Shown: piece by piece, positions 308 through 43,603 of the stretch | Numbering within the stretch: position 1 is the first letter of the stretch | Layout: the number at the start of each line of letters is the position of its first letter | DNA from: Candidatus Altimarinota bacterium | GTDB taxonomy: Bacteria; Patescibacteriota; Gracilibacteria; BD1-5; UBA2023 | DNA length: 64,000 nt | NCBI GenBank assembly: GCA_014377305.1 | Contig: JACMPW010000015.1 | Location: forward strand, 1-64,000 | Reading direction: 5' to 3' | Notes under the pieces: generated by a model | What the model was told of the DNA's origin: nothing | Database searches by the model: none | The model's input: the letters and a program-made list of their open reading frames with translations, nothing else | Program-made: the position numbers and the translations under genes

Positions 308-1744
308 TTAGTCGTGTCGATTGATCGTCTCATCTCGATGTGGAGATGCATCCTCTCTCAAAGTATATGTGATCTTGGATCCGATCTCTATCGTCCCTAT
401 GATATCCGATATGAGTACCTCGTCGTAGTCATCAATTTCTGGTGCTGCCATCTCTGGTCGGATGATCACGGTTGTATCCTTGATATCCATGATATATCCT
501 GCTTGTTTGTTTCATTTTCTCGCAGCGAACTTTGCATCATAGACAGAGTTCAGGATTGGTGTGATTTCTTTGATGCGATTTTTTGCGATAGATTCATCCA
601 CCTTGTTCGGGAGCTTGCTACTCGCAGCGAGTGGCTCATCATGGTACTCGAATATACCTACTGATTCGAATTGGTATTTGGCTACGAAGTCGAGAAGTAC
701 CTGAAAATCAGTATCCGTCTCACCAGGGAATCCGATGATGAAGCTTGTACGAACGAATGACTGTGGAAAATGAGCTCGGATATACTCGATGAAACTATCG
801 ATATGGGCCCGATCATAATGGCGACCCATGAGTTTGAGGATATTCTCACTCGCATGTTGGAATGGTATGTCGAAATAGGGGAGAAAATGTTTCAACTCGG
901 TGAGCTTCGATAGATGGTCGAGTGTGAGGATATCTGGATAGAGATAGTAGACTCGATACTTGGCTCCTGTAGCTGACGCTGTGATCGTCTCGTCGATCGC
1001 CTGGAGCATCTCGATCAGTCGAGGCTCATCATAGATATCTGTCCCATAGCGAGTTGTATCCTGAGAGATGATCTGGATCTCACGGATCCCTTGATCGAGC
1101 ATCATCTTGACCTCCGCCACGATGGACTCGATCGGACGACTTGTCTGGCGGCCACGGATTGTAGGTATAATACAGAATGTACAATTATTATCACACCCCT
1201 CAGCCACTTTCAGATACTCATATCCGAACGGAGCATGCATATATGCCCGTACCTCATCTCCTCTCCAGACGAATGCTTTTTTTCATTTTCCTGGTGCTGT
1301 GATCGATGCGAGATAGTTCGAGAGAGTTTTTTCTTTGGATTGCTTGTGTGCTTGTTTTGCTTTCACAATAGCCGAGAGGTTGAACTTGGATTTTTTCCCG
1401 AGTACGAGCTCCTCGATGACCGAATACGACATAAATGGTACAATTGATACGAGATTTTTCAAAGAAGATAAAAAAGCATCATCTTTCACACTCACATAAC
1501 ACCCCATGAGTATGAGCTTTTTCCCGAGATCATCGTAGTAGCTGAGCGTATTCTCACTCTCTTGGCGAGCTGATGAGAGGAATCCACACGTATTGACGAT
1601 GACATACTCGGTCTCACTTGACTCAGGATCCTCGATATACTCGATTGGTGCACGATCCGAGTACTTGAGTATCTCACCGATGGCGAATTCGAGATCGACC
1701 ATATTTTTGGAACATCCGAGATTGATAGCAGAAAAAGCGAACAT
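308..1744 (-). CDS. rimO: Ribosomal protein S12 methylthiotransferase RimO
   Basis: Radical-SAM methylthiotransferase that adds a methylthio group to an aspartate of ribosomal protein S12. The 478-residue length is normal. The N-terminal UPF0004 domain shows the three Fe-S cysteines C11, C53 and C82; the radical-SAM CxxxCxxC is at about 184/188/191 (EGCDNNCTFC); a TRAM-like beta domain forms roughly the last 65 residues. Two internal TGA codons (1283-1285, and one just before 'NKQAGY') are read as Gly; without this the gene looks like three fragments. The stop is TAA at 308. Close relative MiaB is less likely because the short C-terminal TRAM and the NLGCSKN start match RimO. Confidence 0.92.
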
Positions 1745-1770
1745 AAAAATGAATTATATGAATTTGCGTG

Positions 1771-1798
1771 AGTATAGAAAAAAACTTGCAAAAAGCAA
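1771..1798 (-). promoter_or_regulatory. rimO promoter
   Basis: On the minus strand, -35 TTGCTT (1793-1798), 16-bp spacer, -10 TATACT (1771-1776), then a leader of about 20 nt to the ATG. The spacer TTTGCAAGTTTTTTTC is almost identical to that of the ddl promoter. Confidence 0.6.
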
Positions 1799-1815
1799 GG
1801 AATGGGTTCTCTGTA

Positions 1816-2709
1816 TTAGATAGAGAGCATCTCTATAATCTCCCCTTCACTTTTCCCTGCCTTTTTCCACATCTTCGGGATGAATGATCCACTCGTGAAT
1901 CCTGGAATCGTATTGACCTCGAGAAAATAGAACTCTCGTCCATCATATCGCCAGTCTATACGTACAACTCACCGAGTTCCGATATATTTACATATTAGGA
2001 GACTCTCACTTGAGAGTCTTTTTTGGAGATCATCTTCTCACTCCATCCAGACCTCGTTAGAGCCATCAGTTTCATATTTTTCCTCGTAGTCAAAGAAGTC
2101 ATTTTTTAGACTCATGATCTCCATGATAGGCAGGGTGTGATATCCAGTTCTGTCTCGATAAACTCCCACAGTGAACTCGCGTCACTCGATGCACTCTTGG
2201 ATCAGGATATCATCATCCGAGATCGTTGCTTGAGTTCCGATCAGCTCACTGCGATCATCTACCTTGGTCGCCCCGATCGAGCTCCCTCACTTATTCGGTT
2301 TGGTGATCACTGGATAGCATACGAGAGGAGACTCGAGTATCTGGATACGCTGACCTCTCTGGAGGTAGAGAGATCTGGGTACCTTGACTCCGAGATTGAC
2401 AACGACTTGGTTGGTCAGATGCTTGTCGATACAGAGAGCATGTACGGTTGCATCTGAGGAGGCATATCAGCAACCGAGAGTCGCGAGAAATGCAGTTATT
2501 TGTCCGTCTTCACCATAGATCCCGTGGAGTACTGGGATCACGAGATCGTAGGTATCGTATTTTGAAAGAAAATCAGGTATATCAGTAGGGAAGTCGTAGA
2601 TATCACTCGTGTGTCCTGCAGTCGTGACCCAATCTTGCATATTGGCCCCGCTCCGGAGTGCGACAGCTCGTTCGGTGGAGATCCCTCAGGTGATGATAGC
2701 GATATTCAT
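1816..2709 (-). CDS. ddl: D-alanine--D-alanine ligase
   Basis: ATP-grasp ligase that makes D-Ala-D-Ala for peptidoglycan precursors in the cytoplasm. Reads as 297 residues once TGA is Gly. Visible family features are the N-terminal 'ITGGISTERAVALRSG', 'PVLHGIYGEDG' near residue 60, 'DKHLTNQV' near 90, and the C-terminal substrate-binding 'VNTIPGFTSGSFIPKMW'. The first Gly of 'GGIS' is a TGA. Stop TAA at 1816. Its own promoter lies directly upstream. The presence of Ddl says the cell retains peptidoglycan. Confidence 0.92.
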
Positions 2710-2801: not shown

Positions 2802-5243
2802 ATGCAGAAAATCTGGATATTTTTAATATTATTATGACTCCCACTTGTGACCTTTGCAAGTGTAGAGTTTTTTGCACTCCTCCCAAATCCTGCCTGAGAT
2901 GATACCCTCTGAGAATATATCAAGATCCGCAATACAGGGTGTCAGACGGTGGATATCTGAGGATATCATCTCTATGATGCATCACTGAAGAATTATACGA
3001 TCCCAATTGGAACCAGTATATGATCACATAGTGATAGATCATTTCCATACTCGGAGACAAAGATATCTCTCAACAATAGTGGTATCGAGACAATCACACT
3101 CACGAGTACTACGGGATCGATTGTGGATAGTGAGACCTATTCTGGTACACAACGAGACAATGTTGTGATATATCTGACTCCAGTAGATGAGGATTGTAAT
3201 ATACCTCTTCCAGTAGAGAGCAATACTGGTATGACGAATACAGGAATGAGTTCGACAGGATCACAGGATAATAGTTCTACAGGAGGGACAAATACAGGAA
3301 CAATATATACTGGATCCTGAGCTCCAGAAACCTCAGGAAGACAGGGAACTGGAACAACAGATATATGAACCACGAATACAGGAATAACAAATACAGGAAC
3401 AACAGATTCAGGGAGTACAAATACCGGGACGAGTTCGACAGGAGCGATAACAGGTACGGGATCCATGGGTACTGGAGCAGTATATCCAGGAGCGATAAGC
3501 ACTGGAACAACGGATACAGGAAGTATGAGTATTGGATCAATCCAAGATCCGAATATTTCTTCAATTGATCATTCAAATACCTGAATCGTCTTTCCTAATA
3601 TATTTCCAACTCGCCAGGAACCGACCAATGCAATACTTTCCTGAAATATCTGGGACTGTGGCATGAATCAACCCTGTCGAGTCAATGTGACATTTGATCC
3701 GATTTTTACTGGAGGATTGCTCGCGAAGAACTATCTTTGTGAAGTGATCACGGCGACAGGCACGCTCACGACTTGCAATCCGAACATACTTTACTTTTCT
3801 ACTGATTCATCATTCTCCTTCCGACTCGTGAATAAGTCAGATCCGAGTCAATCGAGGACGGTGACTTGGGGTATCAGTTTTATAGCAAGACAAGATAACA
3901 GTTTGACAGGAAGTATAAGTTCTACAGGAGGAGTAATAGACACAGGAGTTACAAATACTGGCACTACTTCGTCCTCTTCTGGTATTACTTTTCCTGAAAT
4001 TGTCCCTACTTTCCAAAACTATACTAATACGACTCAATCTGGAGATATACTCACCTGTACGACGAGTCCGTGTCGTGTGAACTTCACTCTCGATCCGATC
4101 TTTACAGGTTCTTTTTTGGCAAAAAACTACAGTTGCGAGATCCGCTACGGAACTCTCGTATATGACTCGTGCAATCCAGCTCAGCTCTATCCGATCGGAA
4201 CTGGGTCGATTGAGATCGTATTGACTCATCGGGCATCCTGACAAAAAGAAAGCAAAACAATCGAAGTAATCCAATCCTTTCCAGTACCCATTAGTCCAAC
4301 CTCGTGAGTGGTATGAATAACTCCAAGTCTTCCGGATACCAATCCTCCGATCGCTATACCCGAATTCGATGGCAAGATGCACTCATACTATGAGCAAATC
4401 GATACTTACGAGTTCAACTGCTATACGCTCACTTGCTCGGTGAATCTGAGTGCAGATCGTTCCTATGATCCTGAGTGAGGCAAGGTCAGATTCCTCTGGT
4501 ACTATGGACCCAATGATATACGGATCACTCGTGATCCAGGTGGTCGCAAATATGCTATCTGAGATCATGAGATCTGGCTGCGTGTGATCGATATAGCGGG
4601 CAACGTCGCTGAGATCAGATATCGGATTCATGTCCTCGGCCCGAGAGACAAGGAGGAACAGGTAAAAACGAAGAAAATAAAAGATCCGTCAATTACAAAA
4701 ACGAAAGAATCCAGTAAAAAGCCGAAGAAGAAAAAACCAAAGAAAATGGACTTCTTCGATCCACCGATGATCGCTCTCCAGAAGTCCAAATTCATATTCT
4801 CGGACGATCGCTATATCTGTAAGACAACAACAAAAACCTGCTCACTCAACCTCACTCTCTCGGGTACTGAAAAGGGGATCATCTATATCTGGACATATGA
4901 TGATGGTGAAGTGATCTCGTCGAAGAATCCAAAATCGAAAAAACTCTCTATCGGTTTTCATGAGATCACCGTCGCCGCAGCCTATAGTGGATCCACTGAT
5001 ATACTCTGGACTCGCATATTATCAGTCGAAGTGGATAAGATCAAAAAAGCAAAAAAATCCAAAAAAATAAAAACCAAGAAAGCTCCGAAAACTGAGATAA
5101 AAAAAGAGATAAAACCAACTCTTGTATCACTTCCAGAGACGGAGCAAATCTCAGAAGATGATATCCCATATACGACGATAGCTCTCCTCTGAGGGATCAT
5201 ACCGCTTGCTCTGCTCAGGAGATTTCTCACAGGAGTGATATAA
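2802..5243 (+). CDS. Large secreted lamin-tail / PKD-domain surface protein
   Basis: A continuous 813-residue protein when about a dozen TGA codons are Gly. Order: signal peptide or anchor (1-19); lamin-tail-like domain (about 20-130, with 'PNPAGDDTLGEYIKIRNTG'); a Thr/Gly/Ser-rich stretch (about 139-243) built of TNTG/SSTG/TDTG units; two homologous Cys-containing domains (about 283-366 and 416-480) sharing 'PCRVN', 'DPIFTG' and 'LAKNY'; a PKD-like domain (about 530-616); a Lys-rich linker; a second PKD-like domain (about 663-744); a second Lys-rich linker; and a C-terminal hydrophobic segment (about 791-808) ending with 'LLRRFL'. CPR surface proteins often have this plan. The partner or ligand is unknown. 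ATG at 2802 is the only start giving an export signal. Confidence 0.82.
3220..3530 (+). repeat. Low-complexity Thr-Gly repeat tract
   Basis: Imperfect 9-15-nt units based on ACA GGA ACA AAT encode TNTG, SSTG, TDTG and similar. It is a flexible, possibly glycosylated spacer inside the 2802 protein and a likely site of length variation. Confidence 0.7.
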
Positions 5244-41454: not shown

Positions 41455-42093
41455 TTACTTCAGTATTTCTCTATCTGAGAATACTACAAGTCTATCAGGA
41501 TATTTTTTCATACTTTTATTCCAAACTCCAGTACAAGTGATTAGATTAAGATGTGATAATCAATCATTCGAAATAAATACCTTTGATGCATCGGCAGAAC
41601 TCCTATAAGTTCGTAATTCGCGTACTATAAAAATAATTGTGGAGCCTTCTCGGTCCTTAATATAAATTTTATCCCCCTTCTGTAAATTATTGAGATTATT
41701 AAATACTCATAGATCCCCATTCTTCCATATTCAATAGTGTCCATCAATAACAGCATTTCCGATCTCGCCAGGCTGTGGACCCATATCCAACCATCCAGCA
41801 TTACTGGGTAGTACGGGTACATTCATAGCTCATTGGGGAGTGAGTCCAACTCGTTCGACAGTAGCATTAAGATTAATTTTTGGAATAGTCAGGTGAATTG
41901 GAATAATTGATATTATGGGTTTTATAAAAGTTGATGATTCTCATAAAAAAGACATACCCGTAATAGGTATACTACTTTTATAAGTAAGTTGACTATTAGA
42001 AAAAGCAGATATTTTAGTAAAATCTGAGTTTCCAAACAAGCCAGAAAATAAAGACAGTGTAACTATTATTAATCATGTTCAAATAACTCTCAT
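41455..42093 (-). CDS. Class F/D-like sortase
   Basis: 212 residues. N-terminal membrane anchor (about 5-20), then the sortase beta barrel with His119 in 'VIDGHYG', Cys187 in 'LNLITCTG', and Arg201 in 'YPDRLVVFSD': the full His-Cys-Arg triad. The spacing and TCTG motif fit class F (or D) sortases. It cuts LPxTG-like signals and joins the protein to the wall. Its likely substrate is the adjacent gene at 42227. Seven or so TGA-coded Gly. Confidence 0.9.
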
Positions 42094-42147
42094 AATGGGG
42101 TGTATTCATGTTGATATAATTTGTGATTGCATATTTTTTTAGGTCTT

Positions 42148-42185
42148 ATATATAAAAGTCCTGTTATATCAGGACTTTTATATAT
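42148..42185. terminator. Terminator after the sortase substrate gene
   Basis: Perfect 16-bp stem ATATATAAAAGTCCTG / CAGGACTTTTATATAT with loop TTATAT. Confidence 0.85.
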
Positions 42186-42226
42186 GTATAATAGCCTATA
42201 GGACTATTTGATTATAGGGAAATAAA

Positions 42227-43603
42227 TTATGATATGTATTTTTTCTGTATGATGATACATACACTAAAAATAAATAAGATACTTGAGATAAGTAAAATGA
42301 CATTTCATTGGGGATTTTCTTCTTTTGGAGCAATTCCCGTATTAGGAAAAAGAGGAACGATAGGTATAGGAATAGGTATAAATGGGCTTTCAAATACAGG
42401 AGTATATATGACTGTTCCAGTATGATTTACAATTGGCACTACTGGTTTTACGGTATCGATAGTAGTACCTGTATTTATCACAACTGTAGTGATATCACAT
42501 TTTCCATCATTGTAATTGCCAGAGTAGTCTCCAGTTGGACAATTATCAGATACTGATCCACCACCAGGTCCACTTGTTATAGGTGGTGGTGGGGGTATAT
42601 AAGTGTTAGTAATTATACAAGTTTTATCTTGATTTGGGAGAAGGGTTACACTCCCTGTTGAGCTACAATCCCCACTGAAGGTTGGGGAATAAGAACTATT
42701 TATATCTTCACTTATTACATATGTTGCACCCGTAAGTGAATAAGAGGTTCCAGGAAATGAGGTTCCTGATGCGAAAAGATCCACACCAGAGCCAGTATTT
42801 TTTACATGTAGCATAAAATCAGAAGGCACAGCTATCCCTCCCCCCGTATTTACCACTTGTTTTATAACATGTAGAGTAGCCTGAGTAACTCCACATATAG
42901 GCGTAGTAATGTTAGTACCTGGTGCGGTTGTAACTGTTCCTCCAAAAGCTAATGCTTTTCCTCCCCATGTTACAGTGCTCCCTATAGTAATACCCGCATC
43001 ATCAATAACTGTTCCAAAAAATGTAGAATTGGCACCGAGTGTAGTTGCAGCAGTTGGAGTCCAGAAAACATCACAAGATGACGCACCGCTGAGTGTAACA
43101 GATGAATTAGCTACAGTGTTTAATGCTCCATTAATCCTGAATATATATGTTCCAGCACCATTTAGGACTATACCAGCTGGTGTTCCGATGGTTACAGCAC
43201 CAGTAGCACAATAAATACCTGGAGTATAGATCCCAATGGCACCATGCCCCACATCAGTAGCAAGATCTATGGCCCCAGGTGGAAATATATATGTACAAGG
43301 TTGTGAATTAAGACCAGATAAGAGACTTCCTTGATCTATTCCTGCTGTAGCATAGGGGGCAGCAGATCCATAATTTGTATGAATACCTGCAGGTACAACT
43401 GCTGGAGCTGTAGTGAATCCGATATCACCATTTACAGTAGCTCCTGCTGCCGTATTAGTATAAGTACTAGAAAGTATACCATACGTTGCTGTTGTTCCAG
43501 GAGAAGGTGTTGTTGCAGCAAATGCTGTAGTATGAGTATAGAGACTCATGAGAGAGATAAATAACAATGTAACCACTTTCAAATTTCTATGATATTTTTT
43601 CAT
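42227..43603 (-). CDS. Sortase-anchored ice-binding-like (DUF3494) surface protein
   Basis: 458 residues. Signal peptide (1-29, 'AFAA'); DUF3494 beta-helix (about 32-225) as in type-1 ice-binding proteins ('NGDIGFTTAP', 'LNGAGTYIFRINGAL', 'ANSTFFGTVID'); a SpaA/prealbumin-like domain (about 235-340) with 'IKQVVNTGGG'; a Pro/Thr linker; sorting signal F419-P-N-T-G423; a hydrophobic stretch (about 434-450); and a basic tail 'QKKYIS'. The TGA at 42305 is Gly; reading it as stop would delete the membrane segment and hide the sorting signal. DUF3494 is widespread and need not bind ice. Confidence 0.88.

Follow-up and report, generated by a model that had tools for sequence, protein, structure and literature searches.

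Which protein does the sortase of a CPR bacterium act on, and is that protein encoded next to the enzyme? The question is raised by a locus of Candidatus Altimarinota bacterium (GTDB lineage Bacteria; Patescibacteriota; Gracilibacteria; BD1-5; UBA2023), for which we analysed a stretch of 64,000 nt, hereafter the window (assembly GCA_014377305.1, contig JACMPW010000015.1, positions 1-64,000 of the forward strand). At positions 41455-43603, on the minus strand and read with code 25 (TGA = Gly), a sortase gene and a gene for a DUF3494 protein lie side by side. Earlier papers describe sortases in over half of CPR genomes, as family fam000526 (Meheust 2019, PMC6744442), and in a Gracilibacterium (PMC6851277), with further reports in PMC4736985 and PMC7143001. 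What our enzyme has in common with fam000526 is being a CPR sortase; the passage on that family names no substrate or partner gene (PMC6744442), and no partner for CPR sortases is named in the literature that we searched. We consider, with good confidence, that the two genes encode a sortase and its dedicated substrate, the DUF3494 surface protein being anchored covalently by the enzyme. The genome (917,877 bases, 16 contigs) holds one DUF3494 gene and two sortases, the second unlinked to the pair; that this second sortase could also act on the DUF3494 protein counts against the pairing.

The enzyme is encoded by the following features:
41455-42132, minus strand: sortase, class-F-like, 225 aa; a membrane helix near the N-terminus (residues 12-33) precedes the sortase domain (about residues 77-222)
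42034-42099, minus strand: membrane helix predicted at residues 12-33 of the sortase (AF2 model)
41737-41739, minus strand: His132 codon (alignment of relatives)
41533-41535, minus strand: Cys200 codon, catalytic as in other sortases (alignment of relatives)
41491-41493, minus strand: Arg214 codon (alignment of relatives)

Membership of the sortase superfamily is indicated by the Pfam Sortase profile PF04203 (E = 5.8e-22, 78.2 bits against a cut-off of 26.6) and by the AF2 model (mean pLDDT 83; about 95-98 in the domain), which has the sortase fold, matching solved sortases of several classes at Z 15-17.7. The full His-Cys-Arg triad that the sequence-only reading had described is present as H132, C200 and R214, identical in all 67 aligned relatives, and we take these to be the catalytic residues, as in other sortases. 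Among NCBIfam classes, class F (NF033748) is by far the best (E = 5.3e-31) and is matched by 67/67 relatives at E up to 0.001; the window sortase misses the curated class F cut-off (107.4 vs 166 bits), which counts against the pair, and reaches none of the class C, E, D and GN cut-offs (27.5 bits or less).

Directly upstream of the sortase gene, 94 bases apart, lies the gene of the DUF3494 protein:
42227-43603, minus strand: secreted DUF3494 surface protein with C-terminal sorting signal, 458 aa (Pfam, fold model)
43517-43603, minus strand: signal peptide, residues 1-29 (judged by eye; helix 2-22 in the model)
42899-43501, minus strand: DUF3494 (ice-binding-like) domain, residues 35-235 (PF11999 and fold)
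42593-42883, minus strand: CnaB/prealbumin-like stalk domain, residues 241-337 (fold, Z 9.6 to 5u6f)
42335-42349, minus strand: FPNTG sorting motif, residues 419-423 (standard codons)
42305-42307, minus strand: TGA codon read as Gly433 under code 25, between the motif and the membrane helix
42230-42310, minus strand: membrane helix (residues 432-457) and basic KK tail of the sorting signal (model)
42148-42185, no strand: near-perfect inverted repeat of 38 bases between both genes (RNA fold z -6.7)

The Ice_binding profile PF11999 places the protein in the DUF3494 family (E = 5.1e-19, 69.2 bits against a cut-off of 28.7), and the fold of its head (residues 31-237) superposes on 7bwy_A with Z 30.8 and an rmsd of 1.3 over 194 residues. 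The head thus has the same fold as DUF3494 ice-binding proteins (FfIBP 4nu2, 7bwy and others; Z 28.9-30.8), the likeness being one of fold, whereas here it sits on a CnaB-like stalk that carries a sorting signal. Between the stalk and FPNTG lies a disordered, Pro-rich spacer, and the chain ends ...PLFPNTGIAPKEENPQ[TGA]NVILLISSILFIFSVCIIIQKKYIS. The motif, the hydrophobic stretch and the basic tail had been described from the letters and are confirmed here; together with the signal peptide, judged by eye, they make up a sorting signal. Neither the NCBIfam LPXTG profile TIGR01167 nor Pfam Gram_pos_anchor PF00746 matches the protein at E up to 1, which also counts against the pair. The inverted repeat between the genes is a possible terminator or attenuator, and the hairpin may lower expression of the sortase relative to its substrate; since it separates the two genes, their co-transcription is uncertain.

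Wall anchoring by sortases is a known system in Gram-positive bacteria, where SrtA acts on LPXTG proteins and dedicated pairs also exist, e.g., SrtB with a linked substrate. Our locus resembles that system in the signal peptide, in the (L/F)PxTG motif followed by a helix and a basic tail, and in a membrane-anchored enzyme with a His-Cys-Arg sortase domain. It differs in its CPR host with code 25, in the DUF3494 head of the substrate, in an enzyme that stays below every NCBIfam class cut-off, and in the motif (L/F)PNTG[ILFV]xP, which is the consensus among the relatives described below.

The stalk has no Pfam match at E up to 1 and is recognised by its fold, which resembles the CnaB domains of pilins (Z 8-10). 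Residues K248, E299 and N333 are kept in all 12 rows with a stalk domain (of 21 rows, one of them entered twice) and are predicted to be its isopeptide triad, a K-E-N pattern being typical of CnaB isopeptide bonds. Such a stalk would also suit a sortase with class C-like activity, one that builds pilus-like fibres from its substrate, whether as an alternative to wall attachment or as a step preceding it. Foldseek indeed ranks class C sortases first for the enzyme model, and the top VIA rows include class C (Z 17.7), but the Z scores of class A, C, E and F chains differ by no more than about 2. Furthermore, the locus consists of a single substrate gene and a single sortase gene; no minor pilins were recognised among the ORFs listed nearby, nor was a pilin lysine motif seen on inspection by eye. 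We therefore regard polymerisation as improbable and retain anchoring of a single DUF3494 protein.

The sequence-only reading had also held that the signal becomes visible only if TGA is Gly. In its literal form this is rejected for the window, where FPNTG is encoded by TTT CCT AAT ACG GGA, all standard codons. What stands is the loss of the rest of the signal: the sole TGA of the region is residue 433, ten residues past the motif, so that a standard-code reading still contains FPNTG, stops at NPQ and drops the helix and the tail. The same reading fragments the sortase, whose ORF holds eight in-frame TGA codons. The wording is literally true in three relatives (G031, G018 and G063) because there the Gly of the motif is itself TGA.

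Several observations indicate that TGA is indeed Gly. In addition to these three motif codons, three TGA-coded positions of the sortase correspond to Gly in most relatives: residue 101 in 61/66, residue 134 in 62/66 and residue 191 in 51/66, 63 of these 66 being on table 11. The tRNA-Trp in the window has the anticodon CCA. A reading of TGA as Trp was considered because TGA takes the place of the Trp of PWN found in standard-code relatives, and was rejected given the conserved-Gly sites and the anticodon CCA. At this position most standard-code relatives have Trp, the window, G024, G015 and G018 have TGA, G031 has TGG and G022 AGG, and G063 lacks the tail. The codon read there as Gly lies at 42305-42307 in the window and also occurs in the stretches L186, L207 and L213. 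Such a TGG-to-TGA change takes a single transition and turns Trp into Gly under code 25 only.

To what extent could such a motif arise by chance? Genome-wide pattern scans ([LIVFM]PxT followed by GGN or GCN codons; [LF]PxT followed by TGA) counted 105 places, of which 100 were listed and read, plus the rest of contig 16. They yielded two full sorting signals, that of the FPNTG protein and that of an LPATG protein (L010); two is a lower bound because other motifs, and [IVM]PxT followed by TGA, fall outside the genome-wide patterns. The LPATG protein is encoded on contig 7 of the same genome (G000; 1425-2318, minus strand), ends in LPATG, a helix and RKRA without any TGA, reaches the TIGR01167 cut-off exactly (15.9 vs 15.9 bits) and has no Pfam domain at E up to 0.01. 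Its neighbours are trpS-like and ftsW/rodA-like ORFs (names by eye). The sequence-only reading had proposed a proteome scan for further signals and had named their absence, together with motif loss in orthologues, as refuting it; a second signal was found. A filter for [LF]PxTG, a hydrophobic stretch and at least two terminal basic residues passed 2 of 1,665 ORFs in the analysed stretches of the genome, and 119 permuted motifs gave six matches in total (0.05 each). This makes a chance motif unlikely, the control being indicative only because the ORF set is enriched for motif-bearing stretches.

Pairing was examined within the order by searching 77 genomes with PF11999 and PF04203. DUF3494 is rare (nine genes in 8/77 genomes) and sortases are common (97 places in 74/77 genomes); 81 of the latter were examined, i.e., 80 fetched stretches and the window, the 16 low-scoring places being left out. 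Sortases of the window's type number nine among the fetched stretches, ten with the window, and DUF3494 lies directly upstream in 8/8 of those with upstream contig, G020 and G005 ending at a contig edge. Conversely, 8/9 DUF3494 genes of the order adjoin a window-type sortase. The remaining 71 fetched stretches hold sortases of different types, 70 of which resemble one another ('FGHSSN ... MTCWPxGT' or similar), and no sorting signal was found within 3 kb of any of the 71. Six of the eight order pairs have complete sorting tails; G063 and G004 keep the motif and lack the helix, with a stop seven residues past the motif in the former and a polar tail in the latter, which counts against the pair. 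The expectation that orthologues would retain the signal is thus borne out for the motif and fails in some for the membrane helix that follows. In G018 we noticed a second DUF3494 protein (L097, 823-3222, minus strand) without a window-type sortase nearby, whose C-terminal end resembles S-layer homology domains (by eye).

Beyond the order, a scan with one genome per species gave 155 sortase relatives, of which the best 80 were analysed. Nearly all of these 80 are from CPR groups (Parcubacteria, Saccharibacteria, Berkelbacteria, Peregrinibacteria, Gracilibacteria and others), with some records titled 'bacterium' only and one Actinomycetota record; the overlap with the order sample is slight (L218, L222 and L282 match G022, G020 and G018). 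The Actinomycetota record (L288, PKYG01000095.1), the sole one of the 80 from a named non-CPR phylum, has the same pair with an LPTTG signal and may reflect transfer or a misplaced contig. Of the best 80 relatives, 67 have a DUF3494 gene upstream in the same orientation. Because the jackhmmer profile used for this count may have drifted to neighbouring domains, it was rechecked with Pfam, which confirmed 67/67 (68/68 with the window protein). Several of the 13 relatives without a DUF3494 match begin at or near a contig end, and in five of the 13 (L219, L231, L249, L268, L281) another upstream ORF bears a motif.

By their tails, the 80 relatives comprise 59 with motif and helix, six with a motif and a non-hydrophobic tail, four with short tails, three fusions, one DUF3494 protein without a motif, and seven with nothing. 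The incomplete tails (10/80) count against the pair, one of them (L263, with a non-hydrophobic tail) being a chance motif match in an unrelated protein. Across 69 motifs, L occupies position 1 in 57, N position 3 in 40, T position 4 in 59, G position 5 in 68 and P position 8 in 47. In the phylum sample (379 genomes), 39 sortases score above 140 bits, and for 28 of them a DUF3494 gene is present in the 5 kb upstream; the 140-bit line was set after the scores were seen, and only five rows below it were taken in. That sample holds 46 DUF3494 genes, 29 of them paired; the 17 without such a sortase downstream count against the pair. Given a density of roughly one DUF3494 gene per 1-Mb genome, adjacency by chance is estimated at well under 1%.

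Some proteins encoded in these stretches carry peptidoglycan-binding domains. L219 has a sortase with the domain PF01471 (2777-3934, plus strand) that ends in LPSTA, a helix and RR and is possibly a sorting substrate as well. Next to the pair, L238 has a DUF3494 protein (1382-2557) that ends in a PG_binding_1 domain and not in a sorting signal, and L265 has another (602-1531) whose PG_binding_1 end is below the family cut-off.

In three relatives, both partners are joined in one ORF:
L238, 2564-4558: fusion of DUF3494, stalk, sorting motif and sortase domain
L254, 2741-4579: fusion of DUF3494, stalk, sorting motif and sortase domain
L284, 1901-4333: fusion of DUF3494, stalk, sorting motif and sortase domain

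The motif is LPKTG, FPNTG or LPNTA. Pfam recognises the DUF3494 and sortase domains in each, and the fused sortase domains keep His, Cys and Arg. No clear membrane helix was found between the DUF3494 part and the sortase in the fusions; the L254 linker holds a possible amphipathic helix (by eye). In L280, an A9 run (about 3020-3160) precedes the sortase, which continues in the -1 frame and has no evident start or membrane helix; this may be a fusion that has been split, the result of slippage or a sequencing error.

No other single observation argues as strongly as the fusions that the neighbouring protein is the sortase's substrate. The fusions bear directly on the possibility that the enzyme serves other proteins, the DUF3494 protein being retained in the membrane through its C-terminal helix. 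The second signal protein of the genome (LPATG) would suit that account, as would some relatives with other or no recognisable neighbours (13/80 without a DUF3494 match); yet adjacency is far above chance in independent samples, and the fusions place the motif between the two domains of one chain, making this account very unlikely. The claim of a sortase with its own substrate is accordingly strengthened by CPR-wide adjacency, the extended conserved motif and three natural fusions.

The fusions and the helix-less tails could also suit a sortase that frees the DUF3494 protein by hydrolysis, yielding a soluble ice- or surface-binding protein. Consistent with this, the fusions are of a secretion-only layout, and characterised DUF3494 proteins are often secreted. 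Sortases, however, usually transfer their substrate to an amine, and in the window the substrate has a complete retention signal as well as a long spacer; we consider release rather improbable for the window.

For a dedicated anchoring pair, the families involved suggest the following course. Sec would export the DUF3494 protein, and its C-terminal helix and basic tail would hold it at the membrane. The membrane-bound sortase would then cut FPNT/G through Cys200, aided by His132 and Arg214, hold the protein as a thioester and transfer it to an amino group at the cell surface, most likely that of a peptidoglycan precursor. The genome encodes Mur ligases (five matches) and penicillin-binding transpeptidases (three matches), which makes a peptidoglycan wall plausible. 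The DUF3494 head would stand on the cross-linked CnaB-like stalk and the Pro-rich spacer, where we infer an adhesive or ice/surface-binding role.

The system is thus of a known kind, whereas the DUF3494 substrate, the CPR-wide pairing and the fusions are undescribed as far as we searched: the literature covered, which leaves most subscription papers and all preprints outside, holds no report of a DUF3494-sortase pairing, and among the literature matches listed there is none of natural sortase-substrate fusions. Engineered counterparts reportedly exist in two self-cleaving sortase fusions, STEPL and BISOP, the latter said to join a protein of interest, LPxTG and sortase in one chain. L238, L254 and L284 have the same chain order; unlike these constructs, they are natural CPR genes, known from sequence. 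Tentatively, and at somewhat less than even probability, CPR bacteria might possess a self-contained module for surface display, with one DUF3494 adhesin for each of its sortases, the fused chain of some lineages, once exported, cutting itself at its internal LPxT(G/A) and anchoring its own head to the wall. If so, the fused chain would anchor itself in a single turnover and would be the natural equivalent of the engineered self-cleavage tags.

Code 25 hides surface proteins of this kind, as standard annotation cuts off the sorting tail and splits the enzyme. With this locus, an enzyme, its substrate and an extended motif are defined well enough to be tested with purified parts, and the fusions, if active, would be natural self-anchoring sortase proteins. 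The pair hints at how the host-dependent, very small cells of CPR bacteria may cover or attach their surface.
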